A stretch of 64,000 nt of DNA from Geodermatophilus poikilotrophus (GTDB lineage: Bacteria > Actinomycetota > Actinomycetes > Mycobacteriales > Geodermatophilaceae), in contig NZ_FOIE01000001.1 in assembly GCF_900111455.1 (NCBI RefSeq), forward strand, positions 880,376-944,375, read 5' to 3'. Shown piece by piece: positions 5,470 through 19,856 of this stretch. Every line of letters begins with the position of its first letter. Position 1 is the stretch's first letter. The translations under genes and the position numbers were made by a program. The notes under the pieces were generated by a model that was not told the DNA's origin, made no database searches, and worked only from the letters and a program-made list of their open reading frames with translations.

Positions 5470-5684
5470 GGGAGGCCTCCTCGTCGTTCCCGCCCGTCGC
5501 GACCCGACGGGGCGGCCCGCCGCTCGGGCGGCTCGGCACGCACCGGTGAGCCAACCACAGCGGATGGGACGGGGCCGTCGCCGAGCGATCCGGGACCCGG
5601 CCCGGCCCCGCGGCGTCGCGGGCCGTGCGGACCACGCGCTCCGGCGGCCCCGGGGGTCTCGGCGTCGACCTGCCCGGCCCCGGC

Positions 5685-6566
5685 TCAGGCCCGGTCGATC
5701 GCGGGGGCGGCCACGTCGGCGGCGGTGGCCGCCCAGCTGGCCAGCAGCGTGAACCCGTCCTCGGACGGGGTCCCGGGCTCGGCGGTGTAGACGGTCATGG
5801 CGAGCTTCCCGCTGTCCTGGGTCGGCAGGTCGAACGTGTGGTAGACCAGCTCGAGGGTGCCGACGACGGGATGACGGAACTGCTTGGCCCCGGCGTGGTG
5901 GATGCGCACGTCGTGCGCGGCCCAGCGGGCGCGGAACTCCTCGCTGACCGTCGACAGCTCCCCGACGAGCTCGCGCAGGTCCTTGTCGTGGGGGTCGCGG
6001 CCGGCCTCGGCACGCAGCAGCGCGACGGTGACGCTGGCCGCGCCGTCCCAGTCGGTGTGGTACTCCCGGGCCCGCGGGTCGAGGAACTGGAAGCGGGCGA
6101 TGTTGGCCGGCCGGCCGGGCATGTCGAAGACCGGTGAGTACAGGGCACGGGCCAGCGTGTTGGCGGCCATGACGTCCAACCGGCCGTTGACCACTAACGC
6201 CGCCGAGGCGCTCATCGAGTCGAGCATCCACTGCACGCGCGGGGACACCTGGGCGCGGCTGCGCCGCTGCGGCGTACGGCTCGGCTTGGCGGCGCGGGCG
6301 AGGTCGAACAGGTAGCGCCGCTCGGCCTCGTCGAGCTGCAGCGCCCGGGCCACGGCCTCCAGGACGTCCTCGGAGACGCCGCCGATGTGGCCCTTCTCCA
6401 GCCGGGTGTACCAGTCGGTGCTCACCCCGGCCAGGACGGCGACCTCCTCGCGGCGCAGCCCGGGCACCCGACGCCGGCCACCGCCCGGCAGCAGCCCCGC
6501 CTGCTCCGGGGTGATGCGAGCGCGCCGGCTGGCGAGGAAGTCGCGGATGTCGGAGCGGTTGTCCAC
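5685..6566 (-). CDS. XRE-family regulator with MmyB-like ligand-binding domain
   Basis: Transcriptional regulator (293 residues). Residues about 5-85 form an XRE-type helix-turn-helix containing RREEVAVLAGVSTDWYTRLEKG; residues about 105-285 match the MmyB ligand-binding domain architecture common in actinobacteria, including VMAANTLARALY and the C-terminal LVYHTFDLP strand. Regulators of this type often control the divergent neighbouring redox operon. Here the 136-base gap faces a zinc alcohol dehydrogenase operon (6703-10010), its most likely target. ATG start chosen from the conserved N-terminal RDFLASRRARI. Confidence 0.88.
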   Translation of the reverse strand: MDNRSDIRDFLASRRARITPEQAGLLPGGGRRRVPGLRREEVAVLAGVSTDWYTRLEKGHIGGVSEDVLEAVARALQLDEAERRYLFDLARAAKPSRTPQRRSRAQVSPRVQWMLDSMSASAALVVNGRLDVMAANTLARALYSPVFDMPGRPANIARFQFLDPRAREYHTDWDGAASVTVALLRAEAGRDPHDKDLRELVGELSTVSEEFRARWAAHDVRIHHAGAKQFRHPVVGTLELVYHTFDLPTQDSGKLAMTVYTAEPGTPSEDGFTLLASWAATAADVAAPAIDRA

Positions 6567-11391: not shown

Positions 11392-12792
11392 GTGATCAGC
11401 CGGTTGCTCCTGCTCGGTGCCACGGGGGACCTGGCCGGACGGTTCCTGCTGCCCGCGCTGGCCCGGCTGTCGGCCGACGGCCGGGTGCCCGATGGCCTGC
11501 AGGTCGTGGGCGGCGCTCACCAGGACTGGGACGACCGGACCTTCCGAACCCACGCGGCCACCCGCTTGCAGCAGCACGCCGGGGACGTGCCGACCGAGGT
11601 GCGGAATGCACTCGTCGATCGACTGCGGTACCGGGCGGTCGACCCCGAGCAGCCCGACACCGTCGCCGCCGCGGTGCGCGCACTCGATGACGGCGGCGAT
11701 GCCACTGACCGGGCGGCGGTAGCGGTCTACCTGGCCCTGCCCCCGGCGCTGTTCCCGGCGGTGCTGGGCGCGCTCAGTGGGGCGGACCTGCCGGCCGGCA
11801 GCCGCACCGCGGTGGAGAAGCCGTTCGGTTCCGACCTGCGCAGCGCGGTGGCGCTCAACGAGCTGCTCACCCGCGTGACCGGCGGCGACCAGGAGGCCGC
11901 GTTCCGCGTCGACCACTTCCTCGGGATGCCGAAGGTGCAGGCGCTGCTCGACCTGCACGCACCCGGCCGCTCGCTGGCCCCCGTCTGGAACAGTGCCTCG
12001 ATCGCACAGGTCGACGTGCTGTGGGAGGAGACGCTGGGGCTCGAGGGCCGGGCAGACTTCTACGACCGGACCGGTGCCGTCCGGGACGTGATGCAGAACC
12101 ACATGCTGCAGGTCCTGACCCTCGTCGCGATGGATCCGCCGGCCCGGCAGACCGAGGGTGACCTGCATGCGGCCAAGCTGGAGCTGCTGCGGTCGGTGCG
12201 CGTGCTCTCCGCCGCGGAGGTCCCCGTCCGGACCCGACGAGCGCGCTACACCGCCGGGACACTGAGCGGAGCGGGCGCCACCGGCGGTCGGGCCGTGCCC
12301 GGGTACACCGACGAGGACGGCGTCGACCCCGCCCGCGGCACCGAGACCTACGCCGAGCTGCTCCTGGAGCTGGACACCCCTCGGTGGACCGGCACCCGGT
12401 TCGTGCTGCGCACCGGGAAGGCACTGGGGACGCCTCGCAAGGGAGTCGCCCTCCACTTCCGGACCGCCGCGCCGGCGTGCGACCCGCGCGACGCCCAGCG
12501 GGTGGCGGCTGACCGGTTGTGGATCGAGCTGGACGCGCCGGAGGAGACCCGGCAGCCCGGCGTGCAGGTGGCCGCCCCGGGCGAGCGCGCCGCGTACGGC
12601 CAGGTCCTGACCGACCTGCTGTCCGGCGGTAGCCGACTCTCGGTGAGCGGCGAGGAGGCCGAGCAGGCCTGGCGGATCGTGGATCCGGTGCTCCAGGCGT
12701 GGGCCCAGGACGCCGTGCCGATGCTGGAGTACCCCGCCGGCGCGGCAGGCCCTCCCCCGCTCGAGGGGACCGCCGGCTCGACGCGGTGGTGA
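11392..12792 (+). CDS. Glucose-6-phosphate dehydrogenase paralogue
   Basis: G6PDH-family protein (466 residues), separate from the canonical zwf at 61324. Seen: N-terminal LLLGATGDLAGRFLLPAL, EKPFG at about 143, the substrate segment FRVDHFLGMPKVQ, DVMQNHMLQVLTL with the catalytic His, and GTETYAELLLELDTPRW. In normal enzymes the substrate motif is RIDHYLGKE; here Tyr is Phe and the phosphate-binding Lys is Met, so substrate or efficiency may differ. GTG start chosen from AGGAGG five bases before it. It is monocistronic and lies directly left of an accessory region. Probably a secondary G6PDH or a related hexose-phosphate dehydrogenase. Confidence 0.88.
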   Translation: MISRLLLLGATGDLAGRFLLPALARLSADGRVPDGLQVVGGAHQDWDDRTFRTHAATRLQQHAGDVPTEVRNALVDRLRYRAVDPEQPDTVAAAVRALDDGGDATDRAAVAVYLALPPALFPAVLGALSGADLPAGSRTAVEKPFGSDLRSAVALNELLTRVTGGDQEAAFRVDHFLGMPKVQALLDLHAPGRSLAPVWNSASIAQVDVLWEETLGLEGRADFYDRTGAVRDVMQNHMLQVLTLVAMDPPARQTEGDLHAAKLELLRSVRVLSAAEVPVRTRRARYTAGTLSGAGATGGRAVPGYTDEDGVDPARGTETYAELLLELDTPRWTGTRFVLRTGKALGTPRKGVALHFRTAAPACDPRDAQRVAADRLWIELDAPEETRQPGVQVAAPGERAAYGQVLTDLLSGGSRLSVSGEEAEQAWRIVDPVLQAWAQDAVPMLEYPAGAAGPPPLEGTAGSTRW

Positions 12793-12915
12793 ATGTCCCG
12801 AAGCGGACCAGCGACACCTGGTGTGGGAGGCCTGCTCGCACGGGACCGCCTCCTGCGCCGTCGGCTGTCAGCCCCTGGAGCCGTCGCGTGCCGGTGGAGC
12901 CCTAGCCTCAGACGC

Positions 12916-13071
12916 GTGCGAGCCGTGCAGATCACCCGCTTCGGCGGCCCCGAGGTCCTCGACGTCGTCGACCTGCCCGACCCCACGCCGGGCGAGGGTC
13001 AGCAGCTCTTCGACGTCTCCACCGCTGGCGTGAACTACGCCGACACCCACCACCGGCTGTCGGCCAACTGA
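12916..13071 (+). pseudogene. Severed 5' end of a quinone oxidoreductase gene (copy A)
   Basis: Encodes only 51 residues starting MRAVQITRFGGPEVLDVV and ending in ADTHHRLSAN. It matches the first 46 or so codons of the intact gene at 18885. A leaderless promoter is retained: TAGCCT (12903-12908) seven bases before the GTG, the same arrangement as in the intact gene. Its third-position GC matches the chromosome. I infer that this is the ancestral native 5' end, cut off when DNA was inserted after about codon 46. Confidence 0.8.
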
Positions 13072-13260
13072 GCTGACGAGGCGCTGGTGTCCCGCAGCAG
13101 AGGTCAGGAACGCTGCTGCCAGCTGCGTCCAGCCACGCAGGTCGACGTCACGTTCGGCCTTCGAGGTAGTCGACGACATGGCGCGGGAGGTCATCCGCCG
13201 GCGGGGGGACGGTTCGGATCGCGTATCCGGCTCCAGTCCCTGCCTTCGTCGTGGCGCCGG

Positions 13261-14007
13261 TCAGGGGTAGATGAGCCGGTTGACCCGGACAAGGAAGTCA
13301 TCACCCCGGTCGACGGTGGCATCGGCGCTCAGCTCGGCGATGACCTCCATCGCCAGGTCCCGACGCCGGGGCGCCCGACCGGGGACCGCCGCGGCGAGAG
13401 CGCGCCGCAACTCGTCACGGGAGAGGTCGGTGCAGTAGGCCGGGGTCCCGGGTTGCTGGCGCCACGACTCTGACAACGGGCCGGCGTCGAGCCCGTCGAA
13501 GCCGGTGTCCTCGACGAGGGAGATGCCGAGGCCGCGGTCTGCGTCGGCGTCGGCGGCAACCGGGGGGGCGAGGCGACGGGAATCGGCTGCAGCGACGGCC
13601 TTCGCGTCGAAGGATCCGGTGGTGATGGCGTTCCACGCCTTGGCCACGGGGCGGCTCAGCTGCTCCGTGACCCAGAGGCTCTCCACCTGCCCGTCGTCGA
13701 GGGCGGCGATGTGGCCGTCGCGCATCGGGTAGTAGTTCGAGGTGTCGAGCAGGACAGCGCGGGTGGGCAAGTCGTCGACGAGCGGCCGGATGTCAGGGAT
13801 CCGGAACAGAGGGATGGAGATGATCAGGGCGTCGACGTCGGTGACGACGTCGCGGGCATTGACCGCGCGTCCGCCCACGGACAAGACGTCGGCCGGGATG
13901 GTCTCGGGACCGCGGGAGTTGGCGACCTTCACTTGGTGACCGGCCTCGCTCAGCCGCTGGGTCAATGTGGCGCCGATGTTCCCGACGCCCAGGATGCCGA
14001 TCTGCAT
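13261..14007 (-). CDS. NAD(P)-binding Rossmann protein (F420-dependent NADP reductase-like)
   Basis: 248-residue protein starting MQIGILGVGNIGATLTQRL, a dinucleotide/F420-NADP binding fold, followed by VKVANSRGPETI, the site typical of NADP 2'-phosphate recognition in this family. Further hallmarks are LDTSNYYPMRDG and the late segment LSESWRQQPGTPAYCTDL. The family (F420_oxidored domain) includes F420:NADPH oxidoreductase and related 2-hydroxyacid-type reductases. It is co-directional with the flavin monooxygenase genes but 420 bases away and behind a hairpin, so probably a separate transcript. ATG start with GGAGGAG-like sequence just upstream. Confidence 0.82.
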   Translation of the reverse strand: MQIGILGVGNIGATLTQRLSEAGHQVKVANSRGPETIPADVLSVGGRAVNARDVVTDVDALIISIPLFRIPDIRPLVDDLPTRAVLLDTSNYYPMRDGHIAALDDGQVESLWVTEQLSRPVAKAWNAITTGSFDAKAVAAADSRRLAPPVAADADADRGLGISLVEDTGFDGLDAGPLSESWRQQPGTPAYCTDLSRDELRRALAAAVPGRAPRRRDLAMEVIAELSADATVDRGDDFLVRVNRLIYP

Positions 14008-14427
14008 TGCTGCTCCTCCGCTGAAGTTGCTCGTGGTGCGTCACACCGGGTCGGGGGCGCGTGGTGTCACTGCGGTGCGATGTGCGGGGTCGGCTGTAGT
14101 GAGGGGTCGACGGTTGCGGTGGGGGTGTCCGCCGGCCGGGCGTCGAGCCCGGCCGACGGACACCGTGCCGAGCACGGGGCCACGCCGATGCACCTCGCGG
14201 TGGAAAGACCGTCCGCCTCACCGAGACCGACCTGGGCCATGTCCAGCACTCCGGCGCGTCGCGGACGTGGGGGCCCGGCCCGAGCCACGGCCGTCGACAC
14301 CACCCTGCTGTTCTAACGGCGCGAGCCGTGTCGTCCGTCGCGGGGCGAGTCCCGTTCTGGCGCTGAAGATGCGGGCAGGGGACCCTTCACCGCTTCGCGC
14401 CCCGATGCCTGAGTTCCGCGTGTCGAG
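14008..14427. other. 420-base intergenic region with one strong hairpin
   Basis: Lies between the Rossmann reductase start and the monooxygenase stop. Apart from the inverted repeat at 14125-14163 I see no gene; short reading frames here lack a ribosome binding site and biased codon use. Confidence 0.4.
14125..14163 (-). terminator. 17-bp near-perfect inverted repeat
   Basis: Arms 14125-14141 and 14147-14163 differ at one position and enclose a 5-base loop GTCGA. It is about 265 bases downstream of the monooxygenase stop and 118 bases upstream of the reductase start, compatible with a terminator for the flavin monooxygenase transcript. Confidence 0.45.
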
Positions 14428-15768
14428 TCAGCTGTCCTCGCCAGAGGTGACGCGCGGGTCCAAGCCGTACAGCTCGGGCACGCCGAGGTTCTCGCGCAAG
14501 GTCCTGCCCGGGTACTCCGTCGGGTAGATGCCTCGCTCCTGCAGCAACGGCACGACATGGTCGACGAATGCGTCGACGCCGTCCTCGTAGACGTCCGGGC
14601 TGAGCCAGAACCCGTCAGCAGCTCCTGCCTCGAACCACTCCTGCAGGTGGTCGGCGTGAACCTCGGCCGGGCCGACGGTGACGGGGTGGTAGTCGATCAC
14701 GCCGTGCGCGAGGATGTCGCGAACCGTCCATCCCTGGCGCGCCACCTCCAGGGCAGGTCCCGAGCGCGGGTCCATCGGCGAGGCCTGGGCAGCCGCGAGC
14801 TGTTCCGGTGTCAGCGGCTGGTCGAGCTGGCTGTGCTGCAGCTGCACCCCGAGCATCGCCGCCAGGTGCGGCACTTGCGCGGTAAGGGTGTCCCCCGCTA
14901 TCGCGATCCGTCGGTCGAGCCCCTCACGCACGCTAGGAGCAACGGTCGTCATCAGTCCCACGATGTACTTGATCTCGTCGGGGTCGCGGCCAGCCTCCTC
15001 AGCCGCCCGCCGGACCATGGCGCGCTGCGCCCGGGCTTCCTCGATGGTCCACACCTCGGAAATGAAGCCGCTCGCATAGCGACCGGCGATCGACAGCAGG
15101 TGGGGGCTCGGGCCTCCGGAGGTGAAGATGACCGGCTGCCCCTGCTCCGACGGCGGGATCGGCAGGGGGCCGCGCGAGGCGACGTACTCGCCCTGCAGGT
15201 TGATCGGCTTCAGTTTCGAGGGATCGGCGAACCGCCCGGACGCCTGGTCCTTGATCCAGGCTTCCTTCTCCCAGCTCCCCCAGAGCGCCTGCACGATCTG
15301 GATGGACTCGTGGGCGCGCTGGTATCGCTCGGTGCGCTCGGCCACCGGACGGCCGTAGTTCGCGGCCACCGCGGGGTCGCTCGTGGTGACGGCGTTCCAC
15401 CCTGCGCGACCGTGGCTCAGCACGTCGAGCGCCTTGAACTGGCGGGCTTGGTTGAAGGGTTCCTGGAACGTGGTCGATCCCGTGGCGACGAAGCCGATGC
15501 GGGACGTCGCCTGGGAGATCGCTGTCAAGGAGATCAGCGGTTCGATGATGTTGCTGATGGGCGCGCGCTCGACGTCTGCGCGTACCGCCGGGAAGTCGGG
15601 GGTGAAGAGGAAGGCGAACTTGCCTCGTTCGGCGGCCTGCGCGTAGCGGATGTTCGCCTCGATGTTCACGTAGTTGCTCGGATCGACGTTGGGCGCCCGC
15701 CACGCGCCTCTCAGGTTCCCGTATCCGTCGGTCAGGGCCATGCCGAGGATGAGGTTGTTCTTTGTCAT
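14428..15768 (-). CDS. LLM-class FMN-dependent monooxygenase (NtaA/DmoA/SnaA type)
   Basis: Bacterial luciferase-like monooxygenase of the NtaA/DszA/SnaA subfamily (446 residues), which uses FMNH2 from a partner reductase to oxidise nitrogen- or sulfur-containing organic compounds. Seen: LTDGYGNLRGAWR near the N-terminus, FKALDVLSHGRAGWNAVTTS (about 125-145), VIFTSGGPSPHL and the C-terminal HVVPLLQERGIYPTEYPG. ATG at 15768 preferred because GGAAAGAGA precedes it; an upstream in-frame ATG lacks one. The partner flavin reductase ends 23 bases upstream. With the divergent MerR regulator it makes an inducible degradation module inside the accessory region. Substrate unknown. Confidence 0.92.
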   Translation of the reverse strand: MTKNNLILGMALTDGYGNLRGAWRAPNVDPSNYVNIEANIRYAQAAERGKFAFLFTPDFPAVRADVERAPISNIIEPLISLTAISQATSRIGFVATGSTTFQEPFNQARQFKALDVLSHGRAGWNAVTTSDPAVAANYGRPVAERTERYQRAHESIQIVQALWGSWEKEAWIKDQASGRFADPSKLKPINLQGEYVASRGPLPIPPSEQGQPVIFTSGGPSPHLLSIAGRYASGFISEVWTIEEARAQRAMVRRAAEEAGRDPDEIKYIVGLMTTVAPSVREGLDRRIAIAGDTLTAQVPHLAAMLGVQLQHSQLDQPLTPEQLAAAQASPMDPRSGPALEVARQGWTVRDILAHGVIDYHPVTVGPAEVHADHLQEWFEAGAADGFWLSPDVYEDGVDAFVDHVVPLLQERGIYPTEYPGRTLRENLGVPELYGLDPRVTSGEDS

Positions 15769-15791
15769 CGTTCTCTTTCCGTAGGGGAGGG

Positions 15792-16289
15792 TCATTCGGC
15801 GAGCCGGTGTGAATTGCTGCCGAAGAAGACGAGGGGCCGTTGCTCGTCGTCGCGATGGAGGTCGAGGACCCGCAACAGGCTGAGGACGTGGTCGCCGGCC
15901 GGGATCTCGGTGTCGAGCTCGACGGTGAGCCTCGCGAGAGCGCCTCGCACGAAGGCCGCGTCGTCCACGACGTCCATGGCGATGCGGTCGAAGCGTTCGG
16001 TGGACGGGCGGCGGAGGTCCTGCAGCAGCCCCGTCTGGGTCTCGCCGAGGATGCTGATGCCCCAGCGGGTCGCCCTGCGCAGCTGTGGCCACGTCGTCGA
16101 CGTGTCAGAGAATGCGACCGACACGAGGGGTGGGTTGAGGGACACCGACGTGAACGAGTTCGCGGAGAGCCCGACGACCTCGCCGTCGATCTCCGCGGCC
16201 ACGACAGCGATGCCCGTCGCGAAGCCGGCAAGCGCATGCCGCATGCCCAGCGGAGACACGCGCTCGGACGGCGCAGACGTGTGAGTCAT
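15792..16289 (-). CDS. Flavin reductase family protein (FMN reductase partner)
   Basis: 165-residue flavin:NAD(P)H reductase-like domain of the HpaC/DszD type. Seen: LGMRHALAGFATGIAVVAA, GLSANSFTSVSLNPPLVSVAF (the flavin-binding signature), and GISILGETQTGLLQDLRRPS. It supplies reduced flavin to the adjacent LLM monooxygenase 23 bases downstream. First gene of the transcript; its promoter carries a MerR-type dyad at 16304-16325 shared with the divergent regulator. Confidence 0.92.
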   Translation of the reverse strand: MTHTSAPSERVSPLGMRHALAGFATGIAVVAAEIDGEVVGLSANSFTSVSLNPPLVSVAFSDTSTTWPQLRRATRWGISILGETQTGLLQDLRRPSTERFDRIAMDVVDDAAFVRGALARLTVELDTEIPAGDHVLSLLRVLDLHRDDEQRPLVFFGSNSHRLAE

Positions 16290-16303
16290 ACGACCATCCT
16301 CGA

Positions 16304-16325
16304 ACCTTCACACCCATGTCAAGGT
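16304..16325. promoter_or_regulatory. MerR-type operator/promoter dyad
   Basis: 22-base dyad ACCTTCACA-CCCA-TGTCAAGGT; arms match at 8 of 9 positions. On the minus strand a TTGACC sits just before it, and a 19-base spacer contains the dyad, the long spacer typical of MerR-activated promoters. It lies between the divergent flavin reductase and MerR genes. Confidence 0.65.
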
Positions 16326-16341
16326 CAAGGAGAATGGGCGA

Positions 16342-16743
16342 GTGCGCATCGGTGACTTGTCCCACAGGACCGGCGTCTCTCCCCGCATGCTGCGGTACTA
16401 CGAGGAACAGGGCCTGATCACGGCGCGGCGCCTGGACAACGGATTCCGCGAGTACGACGACTACCTCGTCGACCGCGTTCACAAAATCCGCGGATTGCTC
16501 GATGCGGGGATTCCCACCCGAATCATCGGCAACATCCTGCCCTGTCTGCACCAGGCGGAGATCGTTGTCGAGGATGCCGACCCGCAGCTTCGGGCCATGC
16601 TCGTCGAGCAGCGCGACAAGATGACCGAACGCATCGCGGTCCTCGAGCAGAACCGAGACGCCCTCATCCGCTACATCGACGCCATGGATCGAGCGGCGCC
16701 CGAGTCGAACCGTTCCAGCGGCGAAACGACCGCCGTTGCCTGA
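16342..16743 (+). CDS. MerR-family transcriptional regulator
   Basis: 133-residue regulator. N-terminal winged helix MRIGDLSHRTGVSPRMLRYY with EEQGLI and RRLDNGFREYDDY, then a C-terminal dimerisation coiled coil (about 80-120, QLRAMLVEQRDKMTERIAVL). No cysteine cluster typical of metal sensors, so it probably senses an organic or redox signal. GTG start, divergent from the flavin reductase with the dyad operator between them; it probably controls that monooxygenase pair. Third-position GC is visibly lower than in core genes, fitting acquisition by transfer. Confidence 0.9.
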   Translation: MRIGDLSHRTGVSPRMLRYYEEQGLITARRLDNGFREYDDYLVDRVHKIRGLLDAGIPTRIIGNILPCLHQAEIVVEDADPQLRAMLVEQRDKMTERIAVLEQNRDALIRYIDAMDRAAPESNRSSGETTAVA

Positions 16744-16959
16744 TGGTGATCCGGATCGCCCTCGACCCGGCCATGTGGTCGACTTTGCTGTGACGGGGTT
16801 CGTCAAGCGACCCAGGCGAAAGCCCTCCTTGAGGCGGGACGAGCGCCCATAGCGTCCATGGGGCGGCTGACGGGCCGGCCGCGTGTCTGAGCGGCGGAGG
16901 CCAGCTCTCAGCACACCGCCCGCCACGTGCAGCCGCGTTCCCTCATCCCCGTGCCGTCC

Positions 16960-17106
16960 ATGCGTGCCGTGCAGATCACTCGCTTCGGCGGTCCCGAGGT
17001 CCTCGACGTCGTCGACGTCCGCGAGCCGGAGCCGGCCGACGGGCAGGAGCTGTACGAGGTCTCGGCCGCCGGCATCAACTTCGCCGACACCCACCACGCC
17101 CTGTAG
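16960..17106 (+). pseudogene. Severed 5' end of a quinone oxidoreductase gene (copy B)
   Basis: ATG-initiated 48-codon fragment, MRAVQITRFGGPEVLDVV through INFADTHHAL, then a TAG stop. It aligns with copy A and with the intact gene, but no TANNNT promoter element precedes it, so it is probably silent. After the ADTHH codons it shares the junction CTGT-GG-CAACTGA with copy A. It marks the border between the two cargo modules. Confidence 0.8.
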
Positions 17107-17300
17107 GTCAACTGACGTGAGCAGATCACCAGCGCAGGGTTCTGAAGGCACGCCAGGAAGTGGCGGCCAGCCAGCTCATGTTCCTGGAAGCCGACCTTCC
17201 GCGTGCATGCGGAACGACTGGAGCGCCGTGCGGATCGTTGGAGGCCCGTGGCACTTAGGCCGGTGACCTGCCGGTTCGGGCGCGCGAGGTCTGCCGTCCG

Positions 17301-17663
17301 TCACTGGTTGACTGGAGGCGGCTTGGGAAGCTCCCAGACGCGCTTGAAGTCGTCGGCCACCAGCGGCCAGACCAGCCGGAGGCCGTCCCCGACCGAGTCG
17401 ACCCCGTCGGCCAGGGGTGGGAAGACGACGAACTCGTGGGGGATTACGCGGCCGGCCCGGTCCCGCCGCCCCAGGGGGTCGGGGAACCGCAGAGCCACCA
17501 GCTCGGGGAGCGCACCCGTGCCGGGGACGCGTGCCCGCACCTCGGACCGCTCCTCAAGACCTGAGAATGCGGTGTCGTAGACCGGCAGCGGGTCCTCGAA
17601 GCCCCCTCGACGGAGGAACCGGAATCCCCAGGTCCGCCCGCGCGTGGCCCAGATGAGGCTCAC
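17301..17663 (-). CDS. Small partner protein of the GTPase (function unknown)
   Basis: 120-residue protein, not recognised. It begins VSLIWATRGRTWGFRFL, is rich in aromatic and hydrophobic residues with no membrane segment, and ends in VADDFKRVWELPKPPP. The GTG start overlaps the stop of the GTPase gene (17660-17663), so the two are translationally coupled and presumably work together. Such tight pairing with a GTPase suggests an adaptor, effector or modulator. Found only inside the accessory segment between severed gene copies. Confidence 0.6.
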   Translation of the reverse strand: MSLIWATRGRTWGFRFLRRGGFEDPLPVYDTAFSGLEERSEVRARVPGTGALPELVALRFPDPLGRRDRAGRVIPHEFVVFPPLADGVDSVGDGLRLVWPLVADDFKRVWELPKPPPVNQ

Positions 17664-18808
17664 CGTGGGCTCTTGAGGAAGATGTGCTCCGCCTCGCCCC
17701 TCTCCAGGTCCAGCTGGAAGCCGGTCAGGGTTGCCCGGAGGTAGTCGTGCTCGGCCAACGCCTCGGCGTTGACCTCCCTCAGCTTGTCCCCCGCTAGCCT
17801 CGCCACCTCCTCGAGGCCGGGGCCGACGAACTTCGACAGCCGGCCGAGCGGGCCGGGCAGCTTGCCCAGACGTTTGGTCAATACGTTGGCTAGAGGTGCG
17901 ACGCCGCGGAGCAGAGTCTCCGCCACCTTCCCGGGCAGCAGCTTCGCCCGGGCCCACCGGATGTGGCGCTCGAACGGGAGCATCGCGGCCAGGGGGAGGA
18001 TCATCTCCAGGCCGACGCGCTCGGTCACCCGGATCGCGCCTACCTCGAACTTCGCCGACGAGAGCAGGAGGAAGTCCTCGCCCACGGACAGGGCGTCGCC
18101 TGCCTCGACCAGGCCGGCGATCACCGTGCGCAACTCGTTGAGGTCCTCGCCCGCCTTGTCCACGAGGAGGTCCCGGAAGGCGAATACGTCGAGATCCGGC
18201 AGCAGGTCGGACTTCGACAGCGCCATGATCCAGATGCGCGGGAACTCGACGAGCGGCTTTCCATCCGGCAGCAGGTCGTCCCGGAGCTTCAGCAGTCCGT
18301 TGCGGACGTTGGCCAGCAGCGACTTCAGGTACCGCTCCTCCTCGCCGGCGTTGTCCACCAACCGCTGGCCGTCTACTAGCAGCAGGGCGACATCGGAACG
18401 CAGCAGGGACCGGAACGTGTCGACCCGGCGTTCGGCCTCCTCCGGCCCGCTCACATCCTGCTCGAACCACTCCCCCGGGTAGTCGTGCCAGACCAGGCGC
18501 AGGGCGTCGATTGGCCGGCCCTTCGCCGCCTTGGCGTCGGACCCCGGCTTCAACTTGAGTGAGAAGGCGTAGGACGTCGCGGAGAAGCGATTGAGCTCTG
18601 GCAGCCGCGCTGAGTTCTTCATGCCGAGGTAGTTCCGGTGCAGGCGGGTGCCTTGGCCGAAGTCGTCCGCCACGACGTCGAAGAGCGCCTTCTTCCGGTA
18701 CTGCGGCTCCTGTGTGGCTCCGTAGAACGACGACAGCAGCACGGTCTTGCCGCTGCCGCTCTCACCGAACACCGCGATGTGCTGCTCCAGCGCAGCGCTC
18801 AGTTGCAT
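17660..18808 (-). CDS. P-loop GTPase-like protein (TRAFAC clade, YcjX/double-GTPase-like)
   Basis: 382-residue nucleotide-binding protein. Walker A FGESGSGKTVLLSSFYG lies at about 14-30; LVWHDYPGEWF (about 110) resembles the DYPGEW switch segment known from the YcjX (DUF463) family; VALLLVDGQRL follows; ALSKSDLL (about 190) fits the NKxD guanine-specificity position. The C-terminal half is helical without membrane spans. GTPases of this clade also occur in proposed bacterial conflict systems. ATG start: no ribosome binding site, but TACGCT a few bases upstream suggests a leaderless mRNA. It forms a two-gene cassette with the 120-residue partner and lies in an insertion hot spot. A role in defence or regulation is inference. 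Confidence 0.75.
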   Translation of the reverse strand: MQLSAALEQHIAVFGESGSGKTVLLSSFYGATQEPQYRKKALFDVVADDFGQGTRLHRNYLGMKNSARLPELNRFSATSYAFSLKLKPGSDAKAAKGRPIDALRLVWHDYPGEWFEQDVSGPEEAERRVDTFRSLLRSDVALLLVDGQRLVDNAGEEERYLKSLLANVRNGLLKLRDDLLPDGKPLVEFPRIWIMALSKSDLLPDLDVFAFRDLLVDKAGEDLNELRTVIAGLVEAGDALSVGEDFLLLSSAKFEVGAIRVTERVGLEMILPLAAMLPFERHIRWARAKLLPGKVAETLLRGVAPLANVLTKRLGKLPGPLGRLSKFVGPGLEEVARLAGDKLREVNAEALAEHDYLRATLTGFQLDLERGEAEHIFLKSPR

Positions 18809-18872
18809 GCGCGGAGCGTAGGAGCCGCTGCTGCCTTGTTCCTGACGGACACGGCCGCGGCGGACCAGGTCA

Positions 18873-18884
18873 TAGCCTGGCCCC
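18873..18884 (+). promoter_or_regulatory. Leaderless promoter of the intact quinone oxidoreductase gene
   Basis: TAGCCT (18873-18878) six bases before the ATG; the same element stands before severed copy A (12903-12908) but not before copy B. Confidence 0.55.
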
Positions 18885-19856
18885 ATGCGCGCCGTGCAGA
18901 TCACCGAATTCGGTGGACCCGAGGTCCTGAACGTCGTCGACCTCCCCGACCCCGTCCCCGGCGACGGACAGCAGCTGTACGAGGTGAGCGCTGCAGGCGT
19001 CAATTTCGCTGATACTCACCAGATCGAGAACAGCTACCTCGCGGCCCAACAGCTGCCGCTGGTGCCGGGTGCGGAGTTCGTGGGGATGACGAACGGTGGT
19101 GGCCCGCGGGTGGTCGGCCTGCTCGACGGCGGCGGTTACGCGGAGAAGGTCCTCGCCCACCCGCGGCTGACCTGGCAGGTCCCCGACGGCGTCACCGACG
19201 AGCATGCGCTTGCCGTCGTCCTGCAGGGCAGCACCGCCTACCACCTGCTGCGCACCAGCGCGCACCTCGCCGCCGGGGAGACCGTCGTCGTCATCGCGGG
19301 CGCCGGTGGCGTCGGGTCGCTGGCCGTGCAGCTGGCCCGCCGCTGGGGCGCGGGACGAGTGATCGCGACGGCGTCCAGCCCGGAGAAGCGGGCACTGACC
19401 GAGGAGCTCGGCGCCGACGCCTCGGTCGACCCGGCCCTGGCCGACGACGACCCGAAGGCCTTCACCGCCGCGCTGCGCGAGGCCAACGGCGGCCGGCCGG
19501 TCGACGTCGTCCTGGAGATGACCGGCGGCAACGTCTTCGCCGGGTCGCTGTCCGCGCTGGCCCCGTTCGGCCGGGTCGTCACCTACGGCATGGCCGCCCG
19601 CCAGGAGACCGCCGCCGTTCCGCCGGGGGTGCTGCTGCAGAAGAGCCGCGCGGTCATCGGCTTCTGGCTCGCGCACTGCATGGCCCGGCCGGCGATGCTC
19701 GACGACGCGATGACCGAGCTGCTGCCGCTGGTGGCCGACGGCGCACTGCGGCCGGTCATCGGCGGGCGCTACCCGCTGACCGCCGTCCGGGAGGCGCACC
19801 AGGACCTGCTCGCCCGGCGCACCACCGGCAAGCTCGTCCTCGACCCCGCTCGGTGA
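18885..19856 (+). CDS. NADPH:quinone oxidoreductase, zinc-independent MDR (intact copy)
   Basis: Quinone oxidoreductase of the Qor/zeta-crystallin type (323 residues), reducing quinones or enones with NADPH. Seen: RAVQITEFGGPEVLNVV, VNFADTHQIENSY, LPLVPGAEFVG, VVVIAGAGGVGSLAVQLARRWG (about 127) and the C-terminal HQDLLARRTTGKLVLDP. It lacks the zinc ligands of alcohol dehydrogenases. The first 46 codons use more A/T third positions than the rest of the gene, suggesting that this 5' end was replaced, while the native 5' end remains as copy A at 12916. Confidence 0.9.
   Translation: MRAVQITEFGGPEVLNVVDLPDPVPGDGQQLYEVSAAGVNFADTHQIENSYLAAQQLPLVPGAEFVGMTNGGGPRVVGLLDGGGYAEKVLAHPRLTWQVPDGVTDEHALAVVLQGSTAYHLLRTSAHLAAGETVVVIAGAGGVGSLAVQLARRWGAGRVIATASSPEKRALTEELGADASVDPALADDDPKAFTAALREANGGRPVDVVLEMTGGNVFAGSLSALAPFGRVVTYGMAARQETAAVPPGVLLQKSRAVIGFWLAHCMARPAMLDDAMTELLPLVADGALRPVIGGRYPLTAVREAHQDLLARRTTGKLVLDPAR

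Follow-up and report, generated by a model that had tools for sequence, protein, structure and literature searches.

A probable mobile cassette array built on the 5' end of a quinone-oxidoreductase-like gene in Geodermatophilaceae

Why should the beginning of one gene occur three times within a few kilobases, and only once in front of a complete reading frame? This question is raised by a 64,000-nucleotide stretch of Geodermatophilus poikilotrophus DNA from contig NZ_FOIE01000001.1 (the window; its genome is G000, other G-numbers being the Geodermatophilaceae genomes compared and L-numbers their locus pieces). It contains a quinone-oxidoreductase-like gene, for which we use "qor" as a label only. 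Matches of 160 nt to its 5' end start at 12917, 16961 and 18886 (copies A, B and C); the other two copies are 81% and 71% identical to copy A, and only the third continues into a complete gene of 323 amino acids, in agreement with an earlier note made from the sequence alone. Copies A and B stop at a common point, ...GCCGACACCCACCA, followed by CCGGCTGTCGGCCAACTGA in A and CGCCCTGTAGGTCAACTGA in B, which the same note had recognised as a break at one codon; the exchange point falls after ...GACACCCACCA, in codon 46. We consider it likely that the locus is a mobile cassette array, assembled by site-specific exchange at this one point in qor and growing beside the gene.

The two parts of the intact gene have different relatives. 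In its body (codons 60–323) G000 is closest to G009, G010, G017 and G023, while codons 1–45 of the intact gene are closest to G007, G002 and G003; it is copy A that matches the 5' ends of the intact G010 and G017 genes, at 97% identity. Maximum-likelihood trees group the G000 body with G009 (support 98/94), copy A with G010 (97/85), and the 5' end of the intact G000 gene with G007 (93/95), a genome that the body tree places in its other clade. Only two branches are strong in the 5' tree, built on 135 columns; forcing the intact 5' end together with G009, G010, G017 and G023 is rejected (p-AU of the approximately unbiased test, 3e-5). GC content at third codon positions (GC3) is 0.933 in both A and B, 0.949 in the body of C and 0.778 in codons 1–45 of C, and GC3 of codons 1–45 is below that of the body in 71 of 75 genomes. 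By the identities and the trees, the native 5' end is copy A, and the intact gene carries a foreign one. The insertion after codon 46 with delivery of a new 5' end that the earlier note had proposed is thus upheld, together with the A/T-richer third positions it had reported and the tree it had predicted, in which copy C does not group with the sisters of the native body. Distances over codons 1–45 correlate with body distances at rho 0.30 in the genus and 0.21 in the family, compared with 0.35–0.77 for six control windows and 0.34–0.49 for the family controls; because these values are lower than in control windows, the 5' ends appear to have been exchanged more than the rest of the gene.

A promoter-like TAGCCT lies 6–7 nt ahead of the start codon in A and C and is missing from B; the earlier note had ascribed a leaderless promoter to copy A. 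Among the copies examined, a TA...T box precedes the 5' end in 73 of the 74 that are intact and in 53 of the 73 that are truncated. Quinone oxidoreductase is no more than an approximate name: the domains that Pfam recognises in the intact gene are those of a zinc-binding dehydrogenase, and the top NCBIfam model, quinone_pig3, scores 200 bits, under its cut-off of 297.

The boundary is fixed well beyond the window, and the repeated 5' ends are no chance matches. Excluding the intact G009 gene, we counted 137 extra copies in 84 locus pieces of 78 genomes, and 114 of these reach the common boundary. In a first alignment this point reads CACCAG in intact genes and CACCAC in truncated copies, apart from a degraded copy in G005; a few truncated copies with CACCAG were found later. 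Across 80 truncated copies, conservation extends past CACCA to position +25 (about CNGGCTGTCSTGNRACNNACNTSA) and then drops to background. The tails of 114 copies divide into 79 of a TGTC type, 11 close variants and 24 others. The tails of G065, G078, G064 and G034 resemble each other (such as CACCACGCCTRAGC...) at the same codon, and may form a second class, possibly with another recombination specificity. The boundary lies at the centre of a dyad, CGACA-N12-TGTCG, with a mean pairing of 0.70 over 113 tails and no more than 0.40 across 30 slid registers. Of 113 truncated copies, 91 run into an in-frame stop no more than 42 nt further on; the two alternative frames give 15 and 45, and random places in cassettes 18%. 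A strict arm pattern, which misses most arms, occurs five times in 108 family genomes, every time in a qor array, and its reversed control not at all. The arm shows no evident resemblance to dif, the site of XerC/XerD.

The window can accordingly be divided into the following features.

5618–5689, plus strand: weak match to the qor 5' profile (positions 19–93; nhmmer E 0.0011, 17 bits), read as what is left of an older copy
11392–12792, plus strand: glucose-6-phosphate dehydrogenase-like gene, zwf (PF00479, PF02781)
12903–12908, plus strand: TAGCCT, -10-like box of copy A, at leaderless spacing
12916–13053, plus strand: copy A, qor codons 1–46, the displaced original 5' end
13053–17096, plus strand: putative cassette 1 (4044 bp): arm, monooxygenase cargo and 5' copy B
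13053–13077, plus strand: conserved arm of cassette 1 past the exchange point, CCGGCTGTCGGCCAACTGAGCTGAC (position profile of 80 truncated copies)
13261–14007, minus strand: F420-dependent NADP oxidoreductase-like gene (PF03807)
14428–15768, minus strand: luciferase-like monooxygenase (PF00296)
15792–16289, minus strand: flavin reductase (PF01613)
16342–16743, plus strand: MerR-family regulator (PF00376)
16960–17097, plus strand: copy B, codons 1–46, apparently delivered by cassette 1 and displaced later; without promoter box
17097–19021, plus strand: putative cassette 2 (1925 bp): arm, GTPase pair and 5' end C
17097–17121, plus strand: conserved arm of cassette 2, CGCCCTGTAGGTCAACTGACGTGAG
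17301–17663, minus strand: 120-amino-acid GTPase partner, no Pfam match
17660–18808, minus strand: Double-GTPase 2 (PF19993, E 9.6e-9)
18873–18878, plus strand: TAGCCT, -10-like box apparently given to the intact gene by cassette 2
18885–19856, plus strand: intact qor-like gene, 323 amino acids; codons 1–46 foreign, the remainder native

The two tandem insertions proposed earlier are both visible, and the remnant at 5618–5689 suggests a further one before them; a comparable 5'-copy remnant in G009 scores 33 bits. The window zwf is probably cargo of an older cassette: the conserved part of copy A begins 108 bp beyond it, and a block of a short-chain dehydrogenase/reductase gene plus zwf abuts the upstream side of a 5' copy or intact gene in G001, G002 and G004 too.

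These features show the anatomy of a unit that opens with a 25-nt arm, contains cargo, and closes with a leaderless promoter and 46 codons restoring qor. In the mobile form, probably a circle, the leaderless promoter and qor codons 1–46 would meet the arm and cargo at the junction. Exchange at CACCA would leave the resident 5' end upstream, fused to the arm, and would fuse the cassette promoter and its 46 codons to the native body, keeping qor whole. The next cassette would then enter the newest intact gene, such that here, and presumably in other arrays, growth takes place beside qor with the oldest 5' end farthest upstream. Such an exchange, for which a recombinase is required, would explain why the boundary is fixed, why the native copy lies upstream, why the intact gene has a foreign end, why there is an arm, and why the right 5' copy travels with its cassette.

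Evidence for movement comes from 108 cassettes that we delimited in 50 locus pieces; the whole unit measures 0.4–15 kb (median 3,396 bp). One cassette, G084:39602-45478, is 96% identical to G086:15543-21436. On its right side the 5' copies are 99% identical and the neighbours past the boundary unrelated; on its left side older 5' copies, 83% alike, give way to unrelated neighbours, and the homology of the cassette ends at CACCA on either side. Two cassettes common to these genomes stand in opposite order. A cassette gene encoding a DUF429-RelA/SpoT fusion (located, for example, at L134:13231-14964 in G101) is 93–98% identical at the nucleotide level across ten genomes of four genera, above the identity of the qor bodies (78–96%) in 45 of 45 pairs. 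It is matched in 31 family genomes, and lies upstream of qor on the same contig in the ten genomes and in G031. From these identities we conclude that cassettes are transferred between genera. Genus g8 carries a version with 77–81% protein identity, the G078 and G083 copies lying more than 250 kb from qor, and this version is possibly near the source of the cassette.

How widespread are such arrays? In Geodermatophilaceae, bacteria of soil and stone, every one of the 26 genomes of the genus gives a match and 25 have an orthologue at 82–100% identity, G021 containing truncated copies only, on short contigs. All 26 genus loci were examined, and 19 carry at least one extra truncated 5' end. Extra copies occur in 53 of the 78 family genomes examined, a fraction that is not unbiased given how the genomes were chosen (the 26 of the genus and 52 more, 13 picked as copy-rich and 39 among the matches listed). 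A single locus in G084 reaches the maximum of 12 extra copies. The 46-residue query matches 108 of 112 family genomes, and does so 11 times in G084; among all profile matches with E <= 0.002, just one is on the opposite strand. In a sample of 200 genomes from the order, each matching genome outside the family has a single match, except one with two (match counts only). A named genome collection yielded 12 stretches with the boundary pattern, from Geodermatophilus, Blastococcus, Goekera, a Geodermatophilaceae bacterium and a metagenome-assembled genome labelled Frankiales. Within what was searched, arrays were seen only in Geodermatophilaceae.

The upstream (left) neighbours of qor are genes for a FabI-type enoyl reductase and FabG, pointing away from it. 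In G020 the site is uninterrupted, with fabG 120 bp from qor; across the 36 other regions in which both genes could be located, the distance runs from 2.3 to 38 kb (28.7 kb in G000). The uninterrupted gene in G020, and the different cargo present at the same codon in other genomes, are what the earlier note had expected of relatives. Islands between fabG and qor without visible 5' copies occur in G013–G016, G018 and G019; there the cargo arrived by another route or the old copies have been erased.

The cargo is varied, spanning metabolic, regulatory and anti-phage genes (Hachiman, Pycsar, TIR, SIR2). Its weaker GC bias, remarked upon before, holds: GC is 0.685 in each window module, and cassettes average 0.694 against 0.757 for qor bodies. 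In the first 78 modules 138 cargo genes are on the minus and 72 on the plus strand. The newest G023 cassette is a Hachiman pair, HamA and HamB (L093:14337-17410), whose GC is about 0.58 compared with a cassette mean of about 0.69; G065 carries a Pycsar cyclase and a SIR2 protein, and G105 a TIR protein. We scanned 139 cargo proteins, chosen from 203, together, and counts refer to the 25 commonest families per library, a depth at which a lone recombinase could be missed. Among Pfam families MFS transporters (8) lead, followed by HTH_31 regulators (6) and alpha/beta hydrolases (5), with TIR_2 and DO-GTPase2 at three each; the PADLOC models matched include RmrA, RmrT, PycC and HamAB, and two PHROG transposase families occur once each. 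PADLOC left several other large cargo proteins unrecognised, and gave only weak ATPase-like matches for the GTPase pair of the window. Double-GTPase 2 and its 120-residue partner are adjacent in the qor regions of eight of the 78 genomes (besides the window, G003, G034, G035, G054, G083, G087 and G102, at 64–76% protein identity to the window's), making the pair a candidate new defence or conflict system.

What moves the cassettes? The earlier note had seen no recombinase, and neither tyrosine nor serine scans found one in the loci searched. A tyrosine recombinase profile that recovers 22 of 23 of its own members gave nothing below E 0.1 in 9,708 open reading frames of the 84 locus pieces, a search that distant integrases could escape. 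Full PF00589 listings for G008, G012, G016 and G024 placed none near qor (IntI-specific and attC models were not run); three of these genomes have cassettes, and G016 has no extra copy. A serine recombinase scan with four usable queries, covering the loci and 13 extensions, gave no match. PF00239 is present in 19 of the 26 genus genomes, never within 100 kb of qor; the seven genomes without it include G003, G008, G012 and G024, which have cassettes, and G007 and G025, which have partial extra copies. These negatives cover tyrosine and serine types, IS110-type and other transposases not having been searched for at the locus. A single phmmer match (G050, 13484-14944) proved to be a pyridine nucleotide-disulphide oxidoreductase (PF07992) and not a recombinase. 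A third conserved tyrosine recombinase, found beside XerC/XerD-like ones (the L167 family: L167, L164 and L166 in G008, G016 and G024), was considered as an enzyme acting in trans and rejected on its distribution: it occurs in 33 of 112 family genomes, is absent from the array carriers G012, G021, G027, G028 and G034, and is present in G090, G093 and G099, which have no 5' match to the 46-residue query. The boundary pattern was not found in a collection of viral contigs. Against plasmids the query gave best matches 54–63% identical (ten listed, 438 further records), five of the ten annotated as dehydrogenase or oxidoreductase and five unannotated; six phage matches were below 49% identity. Because none was found in the arrays, a recombinase would act in trans. 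Between a passive hot spot and mobilisation in trans, the choice the earlier note had left, the evidence favours the latter, with the enzyme not found.

Several observations count against an array built by site-specific exchange. Apart from the missing recombinase, 24 of the 114 tails (one being that of the intact G009 gene) have no TGTC-type arm, and copy decay shows no clear rise with distance from qor. Seven of the 26 genus genomes show no extra copy, six of them with 2–21 kb between fabG and qor. In pairs of cassettes with a common right end, the right 5' copies are nearly the same in one case of 14 (G084/G086) and 72–88% identical in the others. The main rival is spread by homologous recombination: a site-specific event would have happened once, long ago, and ordinary crossovers via the 5' copies and the qor body would have sufficed since, with no dedicated recombinase today. 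A donor with truncated copy, cassette and intact qor, crossed with a plain qor, would yield the identical structure; the 5' copies are similar enough to pair potentially (truncated and intact copies in G003 agree at 135 of 138 positions), and the lack of a recombinase in the loci searched speaks for it. We think it unlikely. In eight pairs of cassettes sharing a left end, the old 5' copies near the boundary are hardly closer than random pairs in ungapped comparison (last 20 nt 0.80–0.95, random 0.86; next 20 nt 0.50–0.80, random 0.64), which argues against crossovers inside the 5' copy. The 25-nt arm, moreover, is kept among unrelated cargo and then ends, and its acquisition by new cargo would be left unexplained.

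Alternatively, the units may once have been self-sufficient integrative elements that lost their integrase after integration, by the accretion of cis-mobilizable elements (CIMEs) that is established at the ends of target genes according to the available text of PMC5704250. This is decidedly unlikely here, since no integrase-bearing element was found at qor in the loci searched although some cassettes, 93–98% alike between species and genera, must have moved recently, and the median cassette is only 3.4 kb. A further alternative, in which the promoter region or paralogues were duplicated in tandem with no insertion at all, is suggested by the homology and common direction of the copies and is scarcely credible: the different origins of A and C, the unrelated cargo between copies in different genomes and the uninterrupted locus in G020 speak against it, and it is already contradicted by the trees and shared cassettes.

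Site-specific exchange at qor has partial parallels. In integrons, attC hairpin sites are moved by an integrase, IntI; integron-like capture is known mainly from Gram-negative bacteria. SXT/R391 elements supply a new 5' end to their target gene, prfC; the target here is a zinc-binding dehydrogenase gene, the qor units are small (median 3.4 kb), and in their loci no tyrosine recombinase was found. Staphylococcal cassette chromosome (SCC) elements likewise form tandem units at one gene and differ in occupying the 3' end of rlmH with resident serine recombinases (ccr, acting in trans). Unlike a self-sufficient integrase element, the qor attachment site has no tyrosine or serine recombinase gene found next to it.

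By analogy, the array appears to behave like clusters of attC sites lacking integron-integrases (CALIN), or like CIME accretion with SXT-like insertion at a 5' end. CALINs are integron cassette arrays without an integrase (PMC11389934, in the part available), and share with the 108 qor cassettes tandem units of few genes, a defined recombination boundary and expected mobilisation in trans. They differ in that no integron integrase was found in the qor loci, the qor site is at the start of a protein gene, whose 5' end each cassette restores, and qor cargo lies on both strands and is therefore not read from one promoter. SXT, in the accessible portions of two sources, encodes Int and conjugation (PMC2791158) and is about 100 kb long (PMC2654960). 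Streptococcal CIMEs, in the available text cited above (PMC5704250), are tandem elements with common att sites and no integration genes; a common boundary and the lack of an integrase found in the loci recall them (transfer genes were not searched for as such), whereas CIMEs are described there as decayed integrative and conjugative or integrative and mobilizable elements and qor cassettes have moved recently with no resident integrase. The tandem ssrA islands of Dehalococcoides, from the available extract of PMC3146451 (31 islands, 16 with an integration module), resemble the qor arrays in stacking at a single gene, in repeating fragments of the gene end and in the variety of their cargo, and differ in using the 3' end of a tmRNA gene and a serine recombinase, DsiB, carried in modules, compared with a protein gene's 5' end and none found. 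Open-access literature on Geodermatophilaceae, quinone oxidoreductase and integration hotspots (including PMC11706625), as far as its available text extends, does not describe the arrays, which is weak evidence of novelty.

We would go further only tentatively, and with some doubt, in proposing that this is an actinobacterial system for capturing gene cassettes, similar in kind to integrons yet unrelated to them, in which the 5' end of a host gene serves both as recombination site and as mark of successful insertion. Its cassettes would be complete transcription units, several of them anti-phage, moved across genera by an unrecognised or helper-borne recombinase. The arrays sharply raise the question of what enzyme moves the cassettes, given that they seem to carry no gene for one. 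For the family as a whole, qor offers one address for the gain of accessory and anti-phage genes. These gains probably follow an order and could then be dated along the array, and the arrays also hold probable new defence genes, the Double-GTPase 2 pair among them.

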